Part shown: piece by piece, positions 1 through 10,416 of the stretch
Numbering within the stretch: position 1 is the stretch's first letter
Layout: each line of letters opens with the position of its first letter
Made by a program: the position numbers and the translations under genes
The notes under the pieces: generated by a model
Database searches by the model: none
The model's input: only the letters and a program-made list of their open reading frames with translations
What the model was told of the DNA's origin: nothing
NCBI GenBank assembly: GCA_022841375.1
Contig: JALHRQ010000001.1
Location: forward strand, 248,001-312,000
Source: Burkholderiales bacterium
Lineage (GTDB): Bacteria > Pseudomonadota > Gammaproteobacteria > Burkholderiales > SG8-41
Direction: 5' to 3'
DNA length: 64,000 bases

Positions 1-3000
1 GTATAGGCGCTCAAGATCACCGCATCGCCCGGCGGATTCGGTCCCGGCGACAGCACGCTGAACTGCGCCGGATTGGAGCGCGGCGTGACGTAGGTCGAAC
101 CGACAGCGGCGGTCGGATCGCGGCCGAACGCGACATAACCGTTGGTGTATTCCTCGTAAGTACGGCCGGCGCTCGCGGCCGCCGCGGCATTGGCATAATT
201 CGTATTGAAGGTATAACGATAATAAGCCCCCTCAACGAGACCTGCAGTGCCGGCGGCTTGCTCGCCGGCAAAAGCGCCGCGTACGCGACCGCCATAGCTC
301 TGGCTGGGTGCGCACCCCGGACCAAAACAACTGACACTCAGCGCATCGGATGTGCTGACATTGAAACCGCCGTTGCTGATAGGCGCCTCGTCGGCTCTGG
401 CGTTGAACAGCAAACCACCCGCAGTCGGCATGCTGACACTCAGGCCCAGGCTGACCAGCGAGCGGTCAAAATCGACCGCCAGACGTGCGCGCTCGAGCAC
501 GCCGACATTGCCGAAATTGTCGGTCGGGCTGGTCGCCGCCACTTTGCTGTAGTTGTGGGTGCCGGTGACGCCGGTAAAACCACCGGTTGGCACACCCTGA
601 CGGATCAGCCAGTGCGCGCTGCCGAGGATCGGATCGAGATAGGCATCGCCGGTCAGGGTATCCAGCACGTTGATGGCGCCGCCCTGCCAGCGGCCGAGGC
701 GGATGATCGGATCGGCATAACCGGTGGGCGTGTATTCGTAATGTTCCGCCGCCACCGACCCCGACGCGCCGAACGACACCTGCGCGTTGGCCAGCGGTGT
801 CGGCACGCGAAAATTGGTCGTAGTCGCTGCGACATCGTCACCGCGGTCGAACACCACGTAACTGGTATCGAAAATGCGCACCAGATTGCCGGCCGCATCG
901 AACATCACATTGTTACTGGTTCGGGGTCCGTTATAAACAAAGCCGGGGTTGGCCGTAAGCCCGCTGACAGTGTCGCGAATGCTGCCGAAATAAACCCCGC
1001 CAGTGGGTATGCCGCCGATTCCGCCCGTCGAATATAAAACTTCGTTACGCACATTGGCGCTGCCATTGAAATTACTTAGCACACCCGTTGCAGGTGCCGC
1101 CGCAGAATTCAGCACTGCCACACCGTGAATGTAATCAGCATCCAGCCCGTTGTCGGTCATTACACCCGGCGCAGGAACAAAACCGTAAGACAGCCCCACG
1201 CCGGTACCGACCGCCCCTGTTGCCGTACCGCCAAAAGTCCCTCCAACTTCACCCACATAGCCACCGGGCGCGCAATTCGCACCCGTGCAACTGATAACAC
1301 CGGGGGCTTCGAAAAATAATCCTCCGACGCTGCCGTCGCGCATCAATGGGACGTTGGGGGTGGAAGCCGTGATGTTGAGATCACGCGCACTGATGTTGAC
1401 CACATCGGCTGTGCTGAATCCCAGGTTGAGCGCAGCGCTCGCGGTCTGGGCGCTGAAGTTTGCAGCCACGCTCGCCGAATTAAGTGTTCCAACGTTGCCG
1501 AAGGAATCCGTCGGTCGCGTCGCCGCCGTGAGCGCATAGTTGGCGGTACCGGTCACCGTCTGCACGTTATTGACCGGGCCGTAAAAATTGGAAAGCGTGG
1601 ATGAATTTCCCGGCATCAATCCGATCAGCCAGTGCGCACTGGCAGGACCTAACAGACGCGTAAACGGCCCAACCACGTTCGCATTGTCATCAACGACAAT
1701 CTGTCCACCCTGGATGCGGCCCAAGTAAACCGTATTGTCAGGCGCCTTGAAAAGGTCGAGGGCCAAACCGCCGCTGAATTTCACGTTGGCATCGTCGATG
1801 TTGTCAGTCGGTCCCGGCCCTTCAAATGAGGTGTTGCGCATTTCAACCAGACTCTTGTTGCCATCCAGCACGTAATTGGTATTTGACACGGGTGCGATCG
1901 AACCCATGAAGGAGCGAATCGTGCCTGCGGATGGCGCCTGGCTAGAGGCCATATGGCCGAAGTTGGCGCTGGCCACCGCCGGGTTGTTGTACTGCGCCTG
2001 CTGGTAATTCGTCGCCACGGTGCCAGCCGCCGTCTGGGTGTTGGCCAATTCAGTCGTAGTGGTGGCTACAGCAGCCACGGCCGCACCTTGCGCCGTCGAG
2101 GCTGCAGTAGCCTCGGTCTGCGCGGCGCCGGCCTGGGTGCCTGCCGCGTTTGCCTGTGTTTCGGCCGAGCTTGCCGCAGTGGTGGCTGCGGTAAATGCCG
2201 TCCCGGCTGCGGTCGCCTGAGTTTGCGCGCTACCCGCCTCAGTCTGTGCCGTGCCCGCTGCGGTTTGCGCGGTGCCGGCGCTGGCTTGCGCGCTGGTTTT
2301 TGCGCTGCCCGCAGCACCGATGCTGGTCTGGGCGCTGGCGATGTTGCTCTGTGCACTACCCGCCGCAGTGCTTGCATTGCCCGCAGCAGTTGTTGCCGCC
2401 GCTTGCTGGCCTGATACCGAAGAAGCCTGCGTGGTAGCCGTACCGGCCAGCGCCGTAGCATTGCCCGCAGCAGTCACTGCCGCAGTCACTGCCGTAGTGG
2501 CAGCAGTCACCGCGGATTGCGCCGCCGACAACTGGGTGTTCGCCGTTGTAGCTGCCGTCTGCGACTGAGCCTGCGCAGTCTGCGCCGCCGTCAGTTGCAC
2601 CTGGGCATCGCCCAACCGCGCGAGAGCCGTAACCATTGCGGCCTGGGCCCCGGCGAAATCCCCGGCGTTCTGCTTCACCAGCGCATCCGACGCCGCCACC
2701 TGCGACGCCGTGGCCGCAACTTGGGCCAAACCGGCTGCTGTCTGTGCCGCGGCTACGCCGGCTGCGGCCTGCGCGGAGAGTCCGGTCACGGCAGATTGCG
2801 CCGTGGCAATGGTGGTGTTACTGCTATTCGCCTTGGCAAGCTGCGCGTTCGCTGCCGCAAGAGCGGTATTAGCATCCGTCAACGCCTGTTGTGCGGCAGC
2901 AATTGCCGCGGTCAGCGCAGCATTTGCAGTTTGCGCGCTGCTCAGCTGCGTATTAGCAGTTGCTAAATCTCCGGAGGCTGCCGTCAGCGATGTTTGTGCT

Positions 3001-5042
3001 GCCGCCTGGTTGCTGGCAAACGTCACGTTGAAATTCGTCGCATTCGTCAGCGCGGTATTGGCATTCGTCACACTGGTGGTGGCATTGGTCAAAACCGTCG
3101 TCGCCGCCGTTTTCGCATTGGTGAAGTTGGTGTTTTCGGCTGTGGCCGTTCCCAGAGCAGCGTTCGCCGCCGTCATCCCGGTATTCGCCGTAGCCACATT
3201 GGTTCCGGCATTGGTCTTGGCCGTATTGAACGCTGCAGTCTGGGTTGCGGCATTGGTTGCGGCAGCCTGCACCAGCCCGTCGCTGCCCTGCACCTGCGTC
3301 AATGCAGCCTGCGTGGTGGTATTGGCCGGCACGGCGTAAACCGGGTCGGCAAACGCACCGTTGGCAGCAATCGCGGCAGCGGCCTGCGCGGCCTGTGTTT
3401 CAGCCGTGGTACGCGTGGATGCTGACAATGCGGCATTGGTGCCAGCCAGCGCAACATCCGGAGCAGGAAGTGCATTGACGGTGGTCACCGCCGTTTGCGC
3501 GTTGCCGATCGCAGTGTTGGCAGTACTGATCGCGGAATTGGCCACCGCCAGGCTCGCTGGCGCGCCCGGCAAAGCACCGACTGCTGTCGTTGCCGAGCCG
3601 ATCGCCGTGTTCGCGGCTGCGACAGCACTGCTTGCCGCCGTCAGATCCGCCATTGCACCCAGGGAAACCAAAGCGGTCTGCCCGGTGTTCAAATTGGCAG
3701 TGGTAGTGGCAATCGCCGAAGTTGCAGCAGTCAGGTCAACCGGCATCAGCAAAGCTGCGGCAGTCACTGCGGTTTGTGCAGCGGTAATGTTGCTGCCTGC
3801 CGTGATGATCGCGGTCGTTGCCGGCGCAACACTGACCGGCGCAATCACGCCAATGGCGGTAATAGCGGTATTGGTCTGTGTTTCAAAAGTCAGCGCCTGG
3901 GTATGCGCACCGACTGCGAGATTAGCGTCGACCTGCGCTTCGGTGGCAGCCTCCTGCGCCTGTGCTGCGTAAGCCCCCTGCGATATCGGCGCATTAGTGC
4001 CAGAAGGCGTGGAAACTGTCTGATTGGTCAGGTCGACTTTTAGCAAACCACTATCAGTTGAGCCTGTTACCTCCTGCGTGATTATGGTCGGTGCAGATGG
4101 GTTACTGCCGCTGCCCGTACTGGAAGTAGTCGTAGTGTTGGTGGACGTCAACGGGCCCGAAGTATTATCGACGATGGCCGTCGAGCGCACTTCGGACGGC
4201 GCGGCGGCCACCGTCGGCGCCGGCGTGTCAGCCGTTTTTTCCGCAGCAGGAGTACCCTGTGAATCCTGGCTCTGCCCGCCCGCACCACCCGCTCCCGCAG
4301 CAGGCTTGGCTGCCGGTTTGGGTGCAGCTGCCTGCTTTTCCTTTTCCGCAGCTGCCTGTTTTTCCTTCTCGGCCTCCTTCTGCTGCTGCGCCTGGTTTAC
4401 CGGCGGCGTCGCCTTGAAAATATCGGGCATTACCGGCAACAGTTGCGGCGCTTGATTGGGCGCGGCAAAACCAACCTGGTTCGGCGCGATGTTCACCGAG
4501 CCCTGCGGCGTGGCAATGAAGGCGGTGCCGACGTTAACCTTGTCGTAGGTACCGGGCGGCGTCGGCGGTTGTGGCGCACCCGCCGGCACCGGCGGGATGA
4601 AAAACGGTTCGTGGTCGGTGCCGCGGATGCCGATGGTTGCGGTCAGCGTGCCGATCCTGTAGTTGTCCTTGTTGGTGCGGCCGATGACGCCGGTGATGGT
4701 ACGGAAGCCGCCCTTCACCAGCGACATGAAGGCGTTCTCGGTGCCGTCTTCCTTACCTGAGAATTTATACTGGTCTATGCGCAGTTCGGTCTGCGGTCGC
4801 ACGGCGAGAATGCCGCCGTCCGACATTTTCAACTGCGTGGACGCGCCGCTGCCGGTGAGCACGGTGTCGCCTTCGTTGAGCAGATCGCCTTTTTTCGCTT
4901 CGCGCATCACGCCGGCCTTGTCGCGGATCTTCACGTCGCCGGCGGAAAACTGCACCGTGCCGATATTGGCCCAAACACTGCCGCAGGACAGGAACATGGC
5001 CAGGACTGCGGCAACGATGCGTAGGATATGAAGTGACTTCAT
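1..5042 (-). CDS. Giant FecR-domain surface protein, candidate Slam substrate (partial, C-terminus beyond left edge)
   Basis: The minus-strand frame is open from the ATG at 5042 to the window edge, giving about 1,680 residues with no stop. AGGAGG lies just upstream of the ATG. A Sec signal peptide ends near VWA (residue 25). A FecR-type domain follows (about 30-170, with TATIGIRGTDHEP near residue 137), then a Glu/Lys/Ala linker with repeated EKEKQAAA (about 215-255). An Ala/Thr/Gln-rich stalk fills about 351-1026, and two tandem barrel-like units follow (about 1048-1278 and 1371-1602), sharing SAHWLI, TDxFGNVG and CxGxxCAP. FecR domains in such large proteins usually act as extracytoplasmic or surface modules rather than sigma regulators. 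The Slam-type gene 70 bases upstream suggests outer-membrane translocation of this protein; that is inference. The signal peptide contains FLSC, a poor lipobox, so a soluble or surface-anchored form is possible. Function unknown. Confidence 0.85.
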   Translation of the reverse strand, partial: MKSLHILRIVAAVLAMFLSCGSVWANIGTVQFSAGDVKIRDKAGVMREAKKGDLLNEGDTVLTGSGASTQLKMSDGGILAVRPQTELRIDQYKFSGKEDGTENAFMSLVKGGFRTITGVIGRTNKDNYRIGTLTATIGIRGTDHEPFFIPPVPAGAPQPPTPPGTYDKVNVGTAFIATPQGSVNIAPNQVGFAAPNQAPQLLPVMPDIFKATPPVNQAQQQKEAEKEKQAAAEKEKQAAAPKPAAKPAAGAGGAGGQSQDSQGTPAAEKTADTPAPTVAAAPSEVRSTAIVDNTSGPLTSTNTTTTSSTGSGSNPSAPTIITQEVTGSTDSGLLKVDLTNQTVSTPSGTNAPISQGAYAAQAQEAATEAQVDANLAVGAHTQALTFETQTNTAITAIGVIAPVSVAPATTAIITAGSNITAAQTAVTAAALLMPVDLTAATSAIATTTANLNTGQTALVSLGAMADLTAASSAVAAANTAIGSATTAVGALPGAPASLAVANSAISTANTAIGNAQTAVTTVNALPAPDVALAGTNAALSASTRTTAETQAAQAAAAIAANGAFADPVYAVPANTTTQAALTQVQGSDGLVQAAATNAATQTAAFNTAKTNAGTNVATANTGMTAANAALGTATAENTNFTNAKTAATTVLTNATTSVTNANTALTNATNFNVTFASNQAAAQTSLTAASGDLATANTQLSSAQTANAALTAAIAAAQQALTDANTALAAANAQLAKANSSNTTIATAQSAVTGLSAQAAAGVAAAQTAAGLAQVAATASQVAASDALVKQNAGDFAGAQAAMVTALARLGDAQVQLTAAQTAQAQSQTAATTANTQLSAAQSAVTAATTAVTAAVTAAGNATALAGTATTQASSVSGQQAAATTAAGNASTAAGSAQSNIASAQTSIGAAGSAKTSAQASAGTAQTAAGTAQTEAGSAQTQATAAGTAFTAATTAASSAETQANAAGTQAGAAQTEATAASTAQGAAVAAVATTTTELANTQTAAGTVATNYQQAQYNNPAVASANFGHMASSQAPSAGTIRSFMGSIAPVSNTNYVLDGNKSLVEMRNTSFEGPGPTDNIDDANVKFSGGLALDLFKAPDNTVYLGRIQGGQIVVDDNANVVGPFTRLLGPASAHWLIGLMPGNSSTLSNFYGPVNNVQTVTGTANYALTAATRPTDSFGNVGTLNSASVAANFSAQTASAALNLGFSTADVVNISARDLNITASTPNVPLMRDGSVGGLFFEAPGVISCTGANCAPGGYVGEVGGTFGGTATGAVGTGVGLSYGFVPAPGVMTDNGLDADYIHGVAVLNSAAAPATGVLSNFNGSANVRNEVLYSTGGIGGIPTGGVYFGSIRDTVSGLTANPGFVYNGPRTSNNVMFDAAGNLVRIFDTSYVVFDRGDDVAATTTNFRVPTPLANAQVSFGASGSVAAEHYEYTPTGYADPIIRLGRWQGGAINVLDTLTGDAYLDPILGSAHWLIRQGVPTGGFTGVTGTHNYSKVAATSPTDNFGNVGVLERARLAVDFDRSLVSLGLSVSMPTAGGLLFNARADEAPISNGGFNVSTSDALSVSCFGPGCAPSQSYGGRVRGAFAGEQAAGTAGLVEGAYYRYTFNTNYANAAAAASAGRTYEEYTNGYVAFGRDPTAAVGSTYVTPRSNPAQFSVLSPGPNPPGDAVILSAY
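240..930 (-). repeat. Second copy of tandem barrel-like unit in the giant FecR protein
   Basis: This segment encodes a unit that mirrors the one at 1205-1900. Shared landmarks are GSAHWLI (603-620 here, 1623-1640 there), TDNFGNVG against TDSFGNVG (508-521 and 1495-1508), and CFGPGCAP against CTGANCAP. Landmark offsets range from 960 to 1,020 bases, so the copies have diverged with small indels. The Gly-rich stretch RGAFAGEQAAGTAG near the end resembles the last strands of TbpB-like eight-stranded barrels (GxFxGxxAxxxGG). The barrel fold is an inference from this pattern. Confidence 0.7.
1205..1900 (-). repeat. First copy of tandem barrel-like unit in the giant FecR protein
   Basis: It encodes roughly residues 1048-1278 of the giant protein. 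It starts near VSNTNYVLDG, passes GPASAHWLI, TGTANYAL and TDSFGNVGTL, and ends with CTGANCAPGGYVGEVGGTF. The order of landmarks matches the copy at 240-930. Alternating hydrophobic residues and a Gly-rich end are consistent with beta strands. Confidence 0.7.
1965..3990 (-). repeat. Low-complexity Ala/Thr/Gln stalk region of the giant FecR protein
   Basis: About 675 residues are made almost only of Ala, Thr, Gln, Ser, Asn and Val, with short degenerate repeats such as AQTAAGTAQTEAGSAQTQA and TANTALTNAT. Pro and aromatic residues are almost absent. The pattern suggests a long helical or coiled-coil stalk like those of trimeric or filamentous surface proteins. The degenerate repeats make this stretch prone to length change by recombination, and it generates many spurious open frames on both strands. 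Confidence 0.75.
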
Positions 5043-5112
5043 GGCAACCTCCTGCTTTGCGCTGCCGGAATAATTTCCAGCCGTGCCTGAACATCAAAAT
5101 ACCGCGGTCTGC

Positions 5113-6486
5113 TCAGCGAAAATCGCGGCGAACAGTAACTGAATAATCAGTGCGCTTGTAGTCGTTGATTTGTATGTTCGAATCATTGCGGATGCGCAGC
5201 ACCTGCGGACGCACCGTCCAGTCGCGGTCCCAGCGCCAGGTGACACCAACCACGCCGTCATACTGCTTGTCTTCTCTAAGCGTCTGGAACGCCGCATTTA
5301 CCAGGTCATATTTGCCCACCTGGGCACCCATTGATGCAAACAGGTCGAGATCATCGCGCAGACGATATTGCCCGCCGAGACGCAGGCCGGTGATGTCCTT
5401 GTTGCCATCGGCCCGGTTGTTGATGGCATTTTCCGAACCAACGAACGCGTTCATCGTGATCGCACTGGCGCCGTCAGCAAACAGCCGCAAGTAACCGCCA
5501 CCCACCAGGGTCTGGTCGAAATCGTTCACCGTCAGTGCCGTCTGCTCGAACCGGTAGCGGTTGTGCTGCGCAAAACCGAGCAGGACGTTCGCCGGGTTGA
5601 TCAAATAACGCACGTCGGCGGCCATGCCCGAACTGGTACGGTTGGGGTTATGGTCGAGATTGAAATTTTCGGCGTTGACACCCAAACGGAACAGCGCGGA
5701 CTGCGTGGCGAAGGAAACCCCGCCCTGCGCGCCATAACTTCCGTAGTCAAAGGTATCTGCATTTCGGTTGACACGCTGGCGCGCCGACACTCCACCGTAC
5801 AGCGCGACACCTTCACCGATGATATGGTTGATATCAGCGCCCGCTGCATACGTCGTGTAGTTGTCCGCGCGCTGCACGTTGCTCGGATCGAGCGTAAAAA
5901 TCAGGTTTCCCAGCGCCGGCACCTTGACCGACGTCGACGCTGACGAGTTGTTGACGTTGGTGTCGCGACCGATTCCGAATTCGGCGTAGCCCGTAATCTG
6001 GGTCTGGCGGATCTTCGACCGTTCCTCGATAGCCTTCAGATAACGCTCGACTGTCTGGCGTGCGGCCGGCGGCGGATTCTGCTGCTGCACGGTTTCAAAT
6101 TCGGTCTTCGCCCGCGGCAAATCGCCCAATTGAAAGTAGGCGCGCGCCATATCCAGCCGGGCGCCTGCAAAATTCGGGTTGACCGCCAGTACGCGCTCGA
6201 AGGCCAGCGTGGCCTTGTCAGCGCGCCCGCTATCGAGTGCAGCGATGCCCAACAGGTAATCAAAGCGGGGATCCCCGGCATACTGATCCTCGAACGGCGA
6301 CAGCAGCAGGTAGGCTTCGGCCGCCTTGTTCTCGCTCACCAGCCGTTCGGCACGCACCCTATCAAGTTCTGCAGCCAGCACTGCCGGAATAGAGATGCAC
6401 AAAGCGAATACCAATGCCGGCAGCACGCGCAATGCGTACGACCTCCAACCCACGCTACGATGCATGATCCCCAAGTTCAACACCAT
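5113..6486 (-). CDS. Slam-like outer-membrane translocon (TPR domain plus C-terminal beta-barrel)
   Basis: 457 residues. A signal peptide (hydrophobic core RVLPALVFALCI, cleavage near LAA at about 39) precedes TPR-like helices at about 40-150 (for example KATLAFERVLAVNPNFAGARLDMARAYF, shown here in part: FERVLAVNPNFAGARLD). A barrel region from about 165 to the end opens with GYAEFGIGRDTNVNN and closes with DYSVTVRRDF. TPR followed by a barrel starting GxGxDTNxN is the architecture of Slam proteins (DUF560), which move lipoproteins or soluble haemophilin-type proteins across the outer membrane. The gene lies 70 bases upstream of the giant FecR gene on the same strand, so they probably form one transcript. 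An alternative start is the ATG at 6465; neither has a strong ribosome-binding site. A generic TPR porin-like protein is the main alternative. Confidence 0.75.
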   Translation of the reverse strand: MVLNLGIMHRSVGWRSYALRVLPALVFALCISIPAVLAAELDRVRAERLVSENKAAEAYLLLSPFEDQYAGDPRFDYLLGIAALDSGRADKATLAFERVLAVNPNFAGARLDMARAYFQLGDLPRAKTEFETVQQQNPPPAARQTVERYLKAIEERSKIRQTQITGYAEFGIGRDTNVNNSSASTSVKVPALGNLIFTLDPSNVQRADNYTTYAAGADINHIIGEGVALYGGVSARQRVNRNADTFDYGSYGAQGGVSFATQSALFRLGVNAENFNLDHNPNRTSSGMAADVRYLINPANVLLGFAQHNRYRFEQTALTVNDFDQTLVGGGYLRLFADGASAITMNAFVGSENAINNRADGNKDITGLRLGGQYRLRDDLDLFASMGAQVGKYDLVNAAFQTLREDKQYDGVVGVTWRWDRDWTVRPQVLRIRNDSNIQINDYKRTDYSVTVRRDFR

Positions 6487-6716: not shown

Positions 6717-8057
6717 CTACTCGACTAACAACGACACAAAATCCTCATATTTATTGCCCGTACCGCGAGGAATGTCGTTGACTTGTTGCAATGTGATGCG
6801 GAAGGGATAACCCAGGCAGTCCTGTAAAGCAGCGATCAGCCGGACATGTTCATTGCCAGCCAGCGCTCGTTTGATCACCAGCCGCGCTTCGATATGATCA
6901 ATGGCGTCCTGCACCAGCTGGATCTGCACGATCGGTGCGATGTCACGCCAGCTTTCAGCAGGAAAACTCGGCCAGTGACGCACGCCATCCGGGCGCACCA
7001 CCATGTTGCGCTGCCGGCCGACAATACGCCGCAACACCGGCAGACCGCGGCCGCAAGCGCACTGCTCGCCGACCTCCGCATAATCGCCATTGGCATAACG
7101 CAGCAGCGGCATGGCGAAATTATGCAGGGTCGAGACGACTACGCGCCCCGTATCGCCGGGCCGGCAGGGTTCGCCCGACTCATCAAGCACTTCGACAATC
7201 AGATTCTCAGCCTGCACGTGGTAGTGCTCGCATTGCGGGCACTGCAGCGCGATATAACCCAGTTCTTCCGAACTGTAGCTGTCGATGATCTCCACGCCCC
7301 AGGACTCGCGTACATCGGCGCGCGCATCCGGCCGCAGCATCTCGCCGTAGGTGCGCACGTGGCGCAGCCGCGGCAGGCGCAAACCCATCTCGCGGCTGCG
7401 CCGCGCCAGCATATGGATATTGGTGGCAAAGGAAATCACGTAGTCCGGGTCTTCCTCGACCAGCCAGCGCAACTGTTCATCAAGATCAGCAGACAGTCCG
7501 CGCACCACCGAAGGGCCGGTCGCAAACGGCATGGTGGCGGGACCCCAGTGGTCCAGCCTGCCCTCGGATGTCTTGCTGCGAATCGCCGCCAGCTTGCCGT
7601 GCAAATCACGCCGGTGCCAGAGATGGTCGCGCAGCAGAAAGGAATTCCACAGCAATTGCGTCCAGCCGGTGCCGCGCGTCAGCAGCGGTCGCCCCATCGA
7701 ACCGGACGAACCGGTGGTGACCATCGGGCCGTGGGACGACGGCGGCGCCGCGCTGTGCATGGCCTCGCCCGCGTCTTGAATGTCGTGGCGTTCGGTAATG
7801 GGCAATTCGCGGTACTGCGGCCAGCCGGCGACGCCCGCAGCCCATGGCGCAAAGCGCTCACGGTAATAAGGCACCGTGAGCACGGCGTGGCGGAATACTT
7901 CGGCAAACTGCCGCAACTGCTGCATTTGCAGGCGTTCAATCGCCTGCCACTGCGACTGCTCCAGTTGCAGCTGCAGGGCCAGCAACCGGGCGGCATGGTC
8001 ATCCGGCATCGCCGGCCAAGTCACACCGGGCACCGCGGAGCGTGTCAGTTCCAGCAT
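6717..8057 (-). CDS. PaaK-like adenylate-forming ligase (phenylacetate-CoA ligase / F390 synthetase family), copy 1
   Basis: 446 residues, the usual length for PaaK-type acyl-CoA ligases, which activate a carboxylic acid with ATP as acyl-AMP and transfer it, usually to CoA. The nucleotide-binding loop TTGSSGSMGRP lies at about 114-124, the YSSEELGYIA aromatic/AMP motif at 261-270, and a hinge with CACGRGLPV and GRQRNM at about 333-355. Cysteines in CPQC (273 and 276) and CAC (333 and 335) could bind a metal, as in some PaaK relatives. It is paralogous to the gene at 9040-10416 and divergent from the methyltransferase between them (100-base shared gap). The substrate is not predictable; an aromatic acid is the family default. 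A 230-base AT-rich gap separates it from the Slam-like gene downstream. Confidence 0.8.
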   Translation of the reverse strand: MLELTRSAVPGVTWPAMPDDHAARLLALQLQLEQSQWQAIERLQMQQLRQFAEVFRHAVLTVPYYRERFAPWAAGVAGWPQYRELPITERHDIQDAGEAMHSAAPPSSHGPMVTTGSSGSMGRPLLTRGTGWTQLLWNSFLLRDHLWHRRDLHGKLAAIRSKTSEGRLDHWGPATMPFATGPSVVRGLSADLDEQLRWLVEEDPDYVISFATNIHMLARRSREMGLRLPRLRHVRTYGEMLRPDARADVRESWGVEIIDSYSSEELGYIALQCPQCEHYHVQAENLIVEVLDESGEPCRPGDTGRVVVSTLHNFAMPLLRYANGDYAEVGEQCACGRGLPVLRRIVGRQRNMVVRPDGVRHWPSFPAESWRDIAPIVQIQLVQDAIDHIEARLVIKRALAGNEHVRLIAALQDCLGYPFRITLQQVNDIPRGTGNKYEDFVSLLVE

Positions 8058-8157
8058 CAGCTATTGCAAGGCATCGCGCTTGGGGGAAGTTTCAGTGTAG
8101 CACCCGCATGCCGGATTACCGCCGGGTTAAGATGCCGCCTTCCTTTGAGTGCTGCGC

Positions 8158-9033
8158 ATGAATACTGAAGATGAACCGCTGGAGATCAGCGCGCCTGTAG
8201 CCTGGGAACTCGCCGCACGATATTGCCGGCTGGATCCGGCTACAGGCGTGACCTGCGCCTGGAATCACGGACTCTGGCAACTATTGCGGCTGATGGGCAT
8301 TGCGGGCACTGCCGCCCGTCGCGGCGAATTCTATCGCCGTGAAATCCGCAAGGCGGCAGAAAACAGAAACGAATTAAACATCCTGGTTTCCGGGGCATCG
8401 GATTATGCAATGCTGGCGCAGATCACCCGCGAATTCGCCGGACTGCAGACCAAACCCGTCATTACCGTCCTCGACATCTGCGAGACGCCGCTGCGGCTGA
8501 ATCGCTGGTATGCCGAGCGTTCAGGACTGTCGATTCAAACGGCGCAATCCGATTTTCTCTACTATACGCCGGACCAGCGATTCGATCTGATCTGCGCCGA
8601 CTCATTTATCGGCCGCTTCCCGCACGAGCTATGGCAACGAGTCGCCGGCCGCTTTCATGCGCTGTTGCAGACTGGCGGCAGATTGCTCACCGCCAGCCGG
8701 CTGCGGACCGCAGATGCATCGCCGCGCATCCGCTTCCCCGCCGATCATGTGGCGCCTTTCCGTGACACGGTGCGTGCAAACATGCTGCAAGCCGGCGCGC
8801 CGGCGGGTTTTGAACTTGAACACGTCACGGCAGCTGCGGAACAGTACGCGCGGCTGCAGGTCAACTATCCGCTGCATTCTGAAGCCAGTCTGCTGGCCCC
8901 ACTGGAACAGGCTGGCTTCATGATTGAAAGCCGGGATCATCATTTGCACACGGCGGGAAAGATTGAAGGCATCCACGCGCCCTCGGTCGCCGCCGCCAGC
9001 ACATTTCTGCAGGTCGTGGCGATACGACGTTAA
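8158..9033 (+). CDS. Class I SAM-dependent methyltransferase
   Basis: 291 residues from the ATG at 8158; the frame also allows a GTG at 8149. The N-terminal helical part (about 1-70) is followed by a Rossmann-type core: motif I NILVSGASDYAML (about 74-86), acidic residue D106 in VLDICE after the second strand, and FDLICADSF as the post-motif II strand. The glycine-rich loop is GASDY rather than the classical GxGxG, but the order fits class I methyltransferases. The gene sits between two paralogous PaaK-like ligases and converges on the second with only 6 bases between the stops. A role in modifying the acid handled by the ligases is inference. Substrate unknown. Confidence 0.7.
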   Translation: MNTEDEPLEISAPVAWELAARYCRLDPATGVTCAWNHGLWQLLRLMGIAGTAARRGEFYRREIRKAAENRNELNILVSGASDYAMLAQITREFAGLQTKPVITVLDICETPLRLNRWYAERSGLSIQTAQSDFLYYTPDQRFDLICADSFIGRFPHELWQRVAGRFHALLQTGGRLLTASRLRTADASPRIRFPADHVAPFRDTVRANMLQAGAPAGFELEHVTAAAEQYARLQVNYPLHSEASLLAPLEQAGFMIESRDHHLHTAGKIEGIHAPSVAAASTFLQVVAIRR

Positions 9034-9039
9034 TCGCAG

Positions 9040-10416
9040 TCAGTGGCGCGGTGCGGCCACTTCTGAAATGAAGTCCTCATACTTGCCGCCGGCACTGCGC
9101 GGAATCTCCGTGCAATAGCTGAACGTCACCTCAAAACCGGCGGGCACAGAGGACAACAGCTGTCTGCGCAACCGTTGTTCCTGCGCCGCGTCCAGCGGCA
9201 CATCAACCACCAGCCGCGCTTCGATCCGGTCAAACGACTTCTGCACCAGCTGGTGCTGACGGATGCCGAGTTCGCGCGACAAGCCGCGCAAACCAAACGA
9301 CGGCCAGAATTGTTTGCCGTTCGCCAACAGCAGCATGTTGCGTGCGCGACCGAGAATGCGGGTGATCACCGGTAACCCCCTGCCGCAAGCGCAGGGCTCT
9401 CCGACCTCGGCCCGATCGCCGATCTCGTAACGGATCAGCGGCATCGCAAAATTATGCAGCGTGCTCACCACGATGCGGCCAATCTGCCCGGGTGCGCAGT
9501 TACGGCCTTCATCGTCGATGACCTCGACCAGCAGCGAATCCGCCATCACATGATAATGCGACGCCTGCGGACACTGCAGCGCGATGTAGCCGCATTCGTT
9601 CGAAGAATACATGTCGACCACCGGAATCCCCCAGGCCTCCCGGCACAGCTCGCGCAAATCGGCCGGCAGCGCCTCGCCGCGGGTGCGCGCTTCGCGTAAC
9701 CAGGGCATGCGGATGCCGTGCTCGATGCAATGCTGCGCCAGCGCCGCCAGATTGGTGGGATGGGACAGCAGATAGGCGGGTTGCTGGCGTTCGATCCAGC
9801 GGATCTGGGTCTCGATATCGCGGGCCACCGGCAGCGTTGATGCCGGGCCAGTGTGGATGATGCCCTCGGTTGCGGCGCCCCAGTTGTCAATTTCGTTTTC
9901 GCTGACGCCCTGCCGGATTGCCGAAAGTTTGGCGCCGAGATCACGCTGGTGCCAGACATGTTCGCGCAGCGTCAAGGCTTTCCAGATCAGGCCGTCGAAC
10001 GCGGTACGCAACACGCTGACCGGGGAACCGGTCGATCCCGAGGTATGGATCGCGCCAACCTGGCCGTGCTGCGGATACGGCGCGCTGCTTGTCAGTTCGG
10101 TGTAGTGGTCCTGCAGATGGCGCCGCGTCAGCAGCGGAAAACGCTGAAAGATTTCCCAGGTCAGGCCAGTGTGCGGCGTCCAGAATTCAGACAGCCGCTG
10201 GCGATAATAAGGAACGGTGTTGACGGCGTGCGCCAGTTCCAGCGAGAGCTGGCGCAACTGCAAAGCCTGCAATTCCTGCGGCACCAGCCACTGCGTACGC
10301 TCCAGCTGGAACACCAGCGCCAATACCTGCGTCGAAGCGGGTTGCGGCAACGTGGGCCACAGTACACCGGGTAAACAGCTTTCGATCCGCCAATCCGGAG
10401 CCGCAGAGGGGATCAC
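9040..10416 (-). CDS. PaaK-like adenylate-forming ligase, copy 2
   Basis: 458 residues with the same domain order as the ligase at 6717-8057: TSGSTGSPV nucleotide loop at about 125-133, YSSNECGYIAL at 270-280, STLHNFAMPLIRYEIGD in the hinge region, and CACGRGLPVITRILGRARNM before the C-terminal subdomain. The first copy's CPQC motif is CPQA here, so one possible metal-binding Cys is lost. It lies 31 bases downstream of the decarboxylase gene on the same strand. The gap holds TATAAAG-like sequence that may act as its own promoter. Reaction by family: ATP-dependent activation of a carboxylate to an acyl adenylate and thioester. Specificity unknown. Confidence 0.8.
   Translation of the reverse strand: MIPSAAPDWRIESCLPGVLWPTLPQPASTQVLALVFQLERTQWLVPQELQALQLRQLSLELAHAVNTVPYYRQRLSEFWTPHTGLTWEIFQRFPLLTRRHLQDHYTELTSSAPYPQHGQVGAIHTSGSTGSPVSVLRTAFDGLIWKALTLREHVWHQRDLGAKLSAIRQGVSENEIDNWGAATEGIIHTGPASTLPVARDIETQIRWIERQQPAYLLSHPTNLAALAQHCIEHGIRMPWLREARTRGEALPADLRELCREAWGIPVVDMYSSNECGYIALQCPQASHYHVMADSLLVEVIDDEGRNCAPGQIGRIVVSTLHNFAMPLIRYEIGDRAEVGEPCACGRGLPVITRILGRARNMLLLANGKQFWPSFGLRGLSRELGIRQHQLVQKSFDRIEARLVVDVPLDAAQEQRLRRQLLSSVPAGFEVTFSYCTEIPRSAGGKYEDFISEVAAPRH

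Follow-up and report, generated by a model that had tools for sequence, protein, structure and literature searches.

Two adjacent minus-strand genes at the start of the window (the whole 64,000-nucleotide stretch of DNA that was analysed) probably form an exporter-cargo pair of the type 11 secretion (T11SS, Slam) kind, with export predicted. The upstream gene encodes a Slam-like outer-membrane protein, and the downstream gene encodes a protein with a FecR head, read here as a dedicated, mostly non-lipidated cargo whose architecture would be new within a known system. In many betaproteobacteria from the environment, the gene of a predicted Slam-type outer-membrane exporter lies directly before that of a FecR-headed protein with one to six small beta-barrels at its end. 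Proteins of this predicted surface or secreted type have apparently been overlooked.

Organization of the locus

The two adjoining minus-strand genes described in the earlier note were recovered at 5113-6486 and 3-5042. The features of the locus are as follows.

5113..6486, minus strand: Slam-like (T11SS / DUF560) outer-membrane protein gene, 457 aa, with TPR helices (aa 43-159) and a 14-strand beta-barrel (aa 162-456)
5043..5112, minus strand: 70-bp gap from the Slam-like stop to the FecR start codon, carrying a ribosome-binding site
3..5042, minus strand: gene of the predicted FecR-headed cargo, first 1,680 of 2,281 aa in the window, running past window position 1
4968..5042, minus strand: probable Sec signal peptide, aa 1-25 (...SVWA/N), without a standard lipobox, as read from the sequence
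4443..4967, minus strand: FecR head, about aa 26-200, with a PF04773 match at aa 59-143 (33 bits, cut-off 24)
1923..4397, minus strand: low-complexity linker and Ala/Thr-rich stalk, aa 216-1040, a probable alpha-helical coiled coil (heptad periodicity measured on aa 356-1018)
1095..1886, minus strand: C-terminal unit 1, aa 1053-1316, handle and barrel by homology to unit 2 (unit HMM 134 bits)
114..923, minus strand: C-terminal unit 2, aa 1374-1643, handle and small barrel (unit HMM 144.5 bits, AF2 model, Foldseek)

The full FecR-headed gene in the assembly (L005:8197-15042(-)) is stop-free over its 2,281 aa. It starts with the ATG at 5042, just downstream of an AGGAGG. Scans for promoters and terminators gave nothing above chance, and no such pattern lies in the gap 5043..5112. 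Five neighbouring genes scanned with Pfam encode two AMP-binding proteins, a methyltransferase-like protein, a Sel1 protein and a thymidylate synthase; none of the five is an exopolysaccharide gene. A profile search of the genome returned a single PF04575 match, no PF01298 match, and four matches to the C-terminal unit, all within the FecR-headed gene.

The Slam-like protein

PF04575 (SlipAM) is the sole outer-membrane-barrel family above its cut-off in the window Slam-like protein, with 23.2 bits in the protein scan (cut-off 22) and 24.4 bits in the genome scan. TPR_19 scores 44.9 bits (cut-off 25), while PF24575 (TPR_Slam) stays under its cut-off, at 20.2 of 35.2. PF04575 is found at E<=0.01 in 48 of the 51 members of the Slam-like alignment A3, the window protein counted, and at E<=0.1 in only 14 of 22 members of the more mixed alignment A1. 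The AF2 model (pLDDT 90.0) contains 14 strands and the N-terminal TPR helices at aa 43-159. Passages of the literature give 14 strands for the Slam barrel (PMC5449769) and 16 for PgaA, some of which is also picked up by PF04575 (PMC8406197).

Foldseek placed BcsC best (E 1e-11) and PelBC at rank 7 among the best 50 PDB matches of the model. No Slam structure is among these 50, so the ranking is unable to favour Slam. Likewise, a PDB sequence search returned mainly TPR proteins, with no Slam among the matches listed. The TPR domain, the 14-strand model and the PF04575 match agree with the Slam layout that had been proposed for the upstream gene. The protein resembles Slam exporters (DUF560, PF04575) in its N-terminal TPR domain, its 14-strand barrel and an adjoining gene whose product has a small barrel at the C-terminus. 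It differs from them in that PF04575 is barely above cut-off and TPR_Slam below it, and in that it belongs to a group of predicted exporters from environmental, mostly betaproteobacterial assemblies that are coupled to FecR-headed proteins.

Head and stalk of the FecR-headed protein

The PF04773 match came from searching the first 214 aa of the protein. When all 2,281 aa were scanned with Pfam, no family was returned; therefore, the FecR head is visible only if searched apart or genome-wide. An NCBIfam scan of the whole protein gave only a sub-threshold Lsa33 match across the FecR region. Pfam confirmed FecR in 10 of 10 head pieces chosen, while the scores of the family head model are partly circular, as it was trained on the family's own heads. 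N-termini of the FecR-headed proteins are signal-like, as judged by eye, and a lipobox-like pattern is present in 5 of 103 heads (duplicates counted).

In FecR regulators, a cytoplasmic part and a membrane-spanning part precede the FecR domain. The protein does not have this sigma-regulator layout: its PF04773 match begins at aa 59 behind a signal-like N-terminus, which leaves no room for a cytoplasmic domain and a helix. The PF04773 domain is common to both, but here it lies behind a probable signal peptide, as part of a predicted cargo to which it is fused. In Lysobacter, the gene of a classical FecR regulator shares an operon with that of a TbpB-like lipoprotein that depends on Slam (PMC11233812).

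The stalk (aa 356-1018) consists of 34% Ala and 18% Thr. Its hydrophobic autocorrelation has a heptad pattern, with 0.222 at lag 7, 0.198 at lag 14 and 0.226 at lag 35 (estimated chance SE about 0.04); the heptad is seen by autocorrelation only, the single-frequency spectrum not being above shuffles. The FecR head, long low-complexity stalk and length of more than 1,680 residues in the earlier note stand, its signal peptide is a probable one, and its "at least two" C-terminal units become four.

The C-terminal units resemble TbpB and LbpB barrels

The four units, at aa 1053-1316, 1374-1643, 1714-1942 and 2006-2280, were defined with a unit HMM that was trained in rounds on the FecR-headed family itself, so that its counts and scores are partly circular. 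The window (aa 1-1680) covers units 1 and 2 entirely. The AF2 model of unit 2 (window:93-1025(-); pLDDT 83.1, pTM 0.82) consists of a beta handle and a small barrel. By DSSP, the barrel part has nine strand segments, of which two are short; the eight strands of the expected barrel are therefore our reading, in which the two short segments count as one. Among 421 Foldseek matches of this model, the top three are LbpB, LbpB and TbpB (prob 0.96, 0.94 and 0.84), which are weak in E (0.012-0.029) and TM (0.26-0.32). That LbpB and TbpB are the nearest PDB folds is in line with the proposed TbpB type. Porins, OmpA and phospholipase A are also among the weak matches.

Sequence profiles point in the same direction. 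With hhalign, 71 units from short proteins aligned to 35 TbpB_B_D segments over 126 columns with P=5.3e-5, the value from one of four unit alignments tried, another of which gave 1.7e-4; the best of 20 shuffles gave 0.48 and the reversed control 0.45. Alignment A2, led by the window's unit, reached only P 0.002-0.004, over two strands. PF01298 (TbpB_B_D) is below cut-off for every unit tested with Pfam; specifically, it matches two family units outside A2 weakly (E 0.004 and 0.0013), and the 85 A2 units have no match to it at E<=0.1. The lipoprotein C domain was not recognised in the A2 units in the same scan, also at E<=0.1, and a PDB sequence search with the unit profile gave no match at E<=10. 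By sequence comparison, the units would work like TbpB_B_D and are probably its distant kin, not Pfam members.

Conservation of the gene pair

The two genes adjoin in nearly all relatives examined, and the adjacency that had been expected holds from both sides. A FecR gene lies just downstream of 77 of 83 Slam-like genes, with a median gap of 16 bp. Conversely, a unit-bearing gene with DNA available on its upstream side was identified solely with the unit profile in 46 regions; of these, 44 have a Slam-like gene upstream and 44 have a FecR head. The relative L066 has the same layout, including the four units, with a Slam-like gene 72% identical; because it recurs there, the arrangement in the window is not due to chance. 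Among 79 retained loci, 29 are named as Gallionella, Sideroxydans, Ferrigenium or Ferrovum type. These are iron oxidisers and are not host-associated.

The 74 distinct complete FecR-headed proteins range from 428 to 2,949 aa, with 26 over 1,000 and nine over 1,500. A single unit is present in 32 of them, the family maximum is six, and in 72 of the 74 a unit, by homology, ends no more than 16 aa from the C-terminus. Thus, of the new class of giant stalked substrate put forward earlier, the predicted FecR-headed cargo architecture stands, and giant size as a typical trait does not. FecR-only forms of 273-302 aa also exist. Eight loci, six of them named Gallionella or Gallionellaceae, keep the Slam-like gene and the FecR head without any unit and form one clade (SH-aLRT 96); a unit search found no unit elsewhere in seven of the eight genomes. 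Because this clade keeps the predicted exporter and the head, retention of the pair does not invariably depend on the barrel. That the Slam-like gene evolves faster in this clade was considered and dropped, as it is not evident from branch lengths. L116, labelled head-only in the 83-gene set by a filter artefact, carries a unit. L094 and L107 look like frame-split genes, and no unit was seen in L141.

Among two-unit proteins, the terminal unit shows the highest conservation in 44 of 48 pairs, and among three-unit proteins in 83 of 93; in four-unit proteins this holds for only 15 of 31 pairs. Against the closest relative, unit 2 (77%) is slightly above unit 4 (75%). Slam-like distances correlate with those of the terminal unit at r 0.78 and with those of the first unit at 0.46, the latter dropping to 0.01 once the terminal unit is removed. 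Their correlation with the FecR head is above that of any unit (r 0.89; 0.71 once the terminal unit is removed), although this may only mirror shared descent and a cleaner alignment.

Proposed mechanism and alternatives

In the proposed mechanism, the Slam-like and FecR-headed proteins would be made from one transcript, and Sec would take the latter across the inner membrane. In the periplasm, the Slam-like protein would recognise its last handle-barrel unit and move the chain across the outer membrane. The FecR head, coiled-coil stalk and extra units would then end up outside, on the cell surface or released from it, as a long fibre that bears several binding modules. The last unit is assumed to be the targeting signal and the extra units effector copies.

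A tentative extension, to which we give limited credence, is that the FecR head is a non-lipid anchor, docked in the periplasm on the Slam-like TPR domain, with the stalk passing through or beside the 14-strand barrel and holding one to six handle-barrel modules outside. The result would be a surface fibre held by its own exporter. Such an anchor would account for the head and the exporter being the most tightly co-evolving parts, for the rarity of lipoboxes, and for the head outliving the barrels in one clade. The last observation, together with the close tracking of the head by Slam-like distances, would also suit a FecR-headed protein that stays periplasmic in an envelope complex with the Slam-like protein, for example with a stalk that spans the distance between cell wall and outer membrane and docks on the TPR domain. 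The units would then be periplasmic binding modules, and nothing would be exported. We regard this as unlikely, because the units resemble the barrels that mark exported proteins in known T11SS cargo and because of the caveat on the head correlation given above.

That the Slam-like protein is a TPR-barrel for exopolysaccharide export, of the BcsC/PgaA/PelB kind, with the FecR-headed protein as an accessory, is suggested by the Foldseek ranks of BcsC and PelBC and by the PF04575 matches to some PgaA. This is very improbable, given the 14 rather than 16 strands of the model, the five neighbours without a polysaccharide gene, PF04575 as the sole barrel family above cut-off, and a structural ranking in which Slam had no entry. 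It is similarly hard to credit that the C-terminal units are membrane-inserted, autotransporter-like barrels with the FecR head as passenger. They are indeed small C-terminal barrels with porins, OmpA and phospholipase A among their weak matches, but the best matches are the soluble barrels of LbpB and TbpB, and the units stand in tandem (up to six), with a handle in front of each to the extent that they were modelled. The last residue of an outer-membrane barrel is usually aromatic; among the 72 complete proteins that bear units, it is K or R in 47 and F in one.

Relation to known cargo

As predicted T11SS cargo, the FecR-headed proteins are comparable to TbpB, LbpB and the haemophilins, which share the C-terminal handle and small barrel; TbpB has two such pairs, and in haemophilin-type cargo the lipid anchor can be absent. 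Unlike these, the present proteins have a FecR head, in many cases followed by a long stalk, carry between one and six units and reach 2,949 aa, with a lipobox being rare; for nearly all of the units tested, Pfam does not detect the sequence kinship. According to section 15 of PMC12282271, predicted T11SS cargo already includes proteins with two to three handle-barrel pairs; therefore, tandem barrels alone are not new. In the Sphingomonas, Psychrobacter and Pls-like proteins of that section, there are two to three such pairs, or the handle is preceded by a long alpha-helical repeat. At the N-terminus they carry Pro-Thr or PTD repeats or the Pls helix, and the majority are lipidated, whereas here the N-terminus is a FecR domain, the lipobox is rare and the taxa are others. 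Two T11SS surveys (PMC8406197, PMC12282271) looked for cargo within SSN clusters 1 and 3 through its resemblance to barrels already known, using the TbpBBD domain or BLASTp. The word "FecR" was not found in the main text of three T11SS/Slam papers.

The conserved pair is suited to testing exporter recognition, as it offers internal and terminal barrels within one chain, with the barrel-less clade as a natural contrast. The units also represent a predicted cargo type whose barrel is hardly seen by Pfam. PF01298 has a match in 18 of 250 sampled genomes of the order, two of these being weak matches to the FecR-headed units themselves, and the units are present in 51 of the 250.

Organization of the two-gene locus

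The earlier note described two adjacent minus-strand genes, one for a Slam-like protein and one for a large FecR protein, and both are in place as claimed. In the source assembly (4.08 Mb, 66 contigs) the window corresponds to C1:248001-312000. The FecR gene continues past its left edge and is complete in the neighbouring stretch, L005.

Window 5113-6486 (-), Slam-like gene, 457 aa
L005:8197-15042 (-), whole FecR gene, 2,281 aa, stop-free, end past the window's left edge

The two genes are 70 bp apart, with AGGAGG preceding the FecR ATG and no terminator-like site found in the gap. From N- to C-terminus, the FecR protein contains a signal-like N-terminus, a FecR domain (33 bits; cut-off 24), a linker with an Ala/Thr-rich stalk, and four units sharing 27-38% mutual identity, each probably a handle followed by a small barrel.

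The Slam-like protein has TPRs and matches PF04575 at 23.2 bits (cut-off 22). In alignments of its relatives, PF04575 is found at E<=0.01 in 48 of 51 A3 members, the window protein included (best E 8.6e-22), and at E<=0.1 in only 14 of 22 members of A1, a more mixed alignment. The predicted structure (pLDDT 90.0, pTM 0.73) contains TPR-type helices and 14 strands; Slam is described as a TPR domain plus a DUF560 barrel with 14 predicted strands (PMC5449769), and the PgaA cluster was left out of a T11SS survey partly for its predicted 16-strand barrel (PMC8406197). The top Foldseek match is BcsC, and no Slam structure is among the 50 matches listed.

The Slam-like and FecR genes are paired across relatives

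Relatives of the Slam-like gene were confirmed in genome contigs in 354 cases; the analysis used the 80 best of these, at 79 loci, and with the window's own locus scored 83 genes. A same-strand FecR-head ORF lies downstream of 77 of them; measured from the end of the Slam-like gene, its start falls between -501 and +187 bp (median 16; n=77), and we take the negative distances to be over-long ORF starts. Among the six without an adjoining FecR, three are at a contig edge (L076, L085, L123), two have none (L075, L135), and at L134 a FecR and unit protein lies 2 kb downstream (L134:13351-15276), with a long Gly-Gly-Thr-Gly repeat preceding the FecR domain. PF04773 was checked on ten FecR pieces, and every one scores over the cut-off. 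Within the window's own family, a FecR head stands beside 25 of 30 Slam-like genes from 30 fetched regions, counting split ORFs once and excluding the weak L065 match; three exceptions are at a contig edge (L061, L062, L064), L063 has none, and L041 has unit-bearing ORFs with no recognised head. At L036/L066 (5302-18286), L092 and L103, two pairs stand in tandem on one strand, which suggests pair duplication; just one giant is present in the L066 tandem.

The pairing also shows when the search starts with the units. Used by itself, the unit profile has matches in 51 of 250 genomes sampled from the order. In 52 regions fetched around a subset of these matches, the local model finds a unit ORF in 48. 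Two of these are truncated by the contig end. In the other 46, the unit ORF is preceded on its strand by a Slam-like gene in 44 (all but L212 and L232), and a FecR head is present in 44 (all but L198 and L213). In a sample of this kind, PF04575 has matches in 60/250 genomes and PF01298 in 18/250; PF04575 occurs with the unit in 32 genomes and with PF01298 in 16, and the unit occurs with PF01298 in 3.

The C-terminal units probably resemble TbpB-type handle-barrel modules

In the Pfam scan, unit 2 of the window matches no family, and the units aligned with it (A2) give no credible one, only scattered weak single-member matches, none to PF01298. An AF2 model of a 311-residue piece, built with the window sequence and 84 relatives, has pLDDT 83.1 and pTM 0.82. 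Handle strands occupy residues 40-142 and nine strand segments residues 156-302; in our reading the model divides into a handle and a predicted barrel, which would have eight strands with the short pair at 220-234 counted as one. The top three of 421 PDB matches (Foldseek, E<=10) are the LbpB N-lobe (two chains) and TbpB, at modest E values of 0.012-0.029 and TM-scores of 0.26-0.32.

Profile-profile comparison points the same way, with P as single-comparison values and four unit alignments tried. Specifically, A2 against 35 TbpB_B_D segments gives P=0.0041 for the whole unit and 0.0023 for the barrel part, the alignment being confined to the first two strands of the barrel (the best of 30 shuffles and the reversed control both give 0.24). 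For 71 units from short proteins, P=5.3e-5 over 126 columns that extend through the barrel, where the best of 20 shuffles gives 0.48 and the reversed control 0.45; a 21-sequence motif subset gives P 1.7e-4. Further controls with the Slam barrel and the FecR head give 0.9 and 0.6. PF01298 is weakly matched, under its 26-bit cut-off, in two family members, L191 (18.1 bits) and L231 (19.6 bits), and L191 also carries FecR (39.3 bits).

Architecture of the proposed cargo and co-variation with the predicted exporter

The FecR-head proteins that are complete, distinct and over 420 aa number 74 and range from 428 to 2,949 aa; units are present in 72 of them. The 72 carry one (32 proteins), two (14), three (15), four (9), five (1) or six (1) units, the last of which finishes within 16 aa of the C-terminus; the exceptions among the 74 are L059 and L141. 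Counting duplicates, a lipobox-like pattern is present in five of 103 heads. Because hydrophobic autocorrelation of the stalk peaks at 7, 14, 21, 28 and 35, we read it as a probable coiled coil.

Between proteins of the same architecture, the terminal unit is the best conserved in 44/48 two-unit, 83/93 three-unit and 15/31 four-unit pairs, which are non-independent. Over 40 exporter-cargo pairs, Slam-like distances correlate with those of the head (r=0.89), terminal unit (0.78) and first unit (0.46), shared descent accounting for part of these correlations. Partial correlation with the exporter is 0.71 for the head given the terminal unit (0/500 permutations as high), 0.22 for the terminal unit given the head (2/500), and 0.01 for the first unit given the terminal unit (211/500). 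On sequence distances, these values show the FecR head as the exporter's closest companion, and the pattern is consistent with a link between the terminal unit and the exporter and with turnover of the internal units.

Proposed export and a clade without barrels

T11SS outer-membrane proteins reportedly export cargo that can be lipidated or soluble. Its targeting signal probably lies in a C-terminal 8-strand barrel, and handles, helical repeats and duplicated handle-barrel pairs stand ahead of that barrel (PMC8406197, PMC12282271). By analogy, the FecR protein would be exported by the neighbouring Slam-like protein and would reach the surface or the outside.

Eight loci are evidence against this reading. 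L095, L098, L099, L102, L106, L110, L111 and L113 encode a full-length Slam-like protein whose FecR-only partner is 273-302 aa long. A search of these loci found no units, and a unit match is absent from seven of the eight genomes, which are MAGs and possibly incomplete. The loci form a single clade (SH-aLRT 96) amid unit-bearing rows, most simply explained by one loss of units; the pair is therefore able to persist without barrels. Two readings follow: the Slam-like protein may have the FecR head itself as client or partner, or the role of the barrel-less pairs may have changed. All eight FecR-only proteins end in phenylalanine, behind a short variable tail.

The word FecR does not occur in the main text of PMC12282271, PMC8406197 or PMC5449769, and a full-text search of open-licence papers found none that names both FecR and a surface lipoprotein assembly modifier. 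The two open-licence papers found to combine FecR with T11SS or Slam terms, in the passages retrieved, mention it only as a regulator or without connection: in one, a classical FecR regulator is encoded in the same operon as a lipoprotein that is TbpB-like and Slam-dependent (PMC11233812), and in the other FecR appears in an unconnected gene list (PMC12075148). Because these searches returned no such FecR cargo, we rate the cargo architecture and the exporter group as new; the T11SS/Slam system itself is known.

Genomic surroundings

The following genes flank the pair.

L005:6169-6963 (+), thymidylate synthase (PF00303, 436 bits)
L005:7430-8128 (+), Sel1-repeat gene
Window 6717-8057 (-), AMP-binding (CoA-ligase-like) gene, match under the Pfam cut-off
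Window 8149-9033 (+), methyltransferase-like gene, match under the Pfam cut-off
Window 9040-10416 (-), AMP-binding (CoA-ligase-like) gene, match over the Pfam cut-off

The first two lie just past the cargo gene. Nucleotide and one-carbon genes are reported close to T11SS genes (PMC12282271), and the thymidylate synthase here may be a coincidence. Immediately upstream of the Slam-like gene, the two AMP-binding genes bracket the methyltransferase-like gene on the opposite strand. The same genome (G000) has three more FecR-domain matches, at C12:60660-60959 (+), C29:10636-10896 (-) and C1:820029-820280 (-), the last under the cut-off, all distant from its sole PF04575 match.
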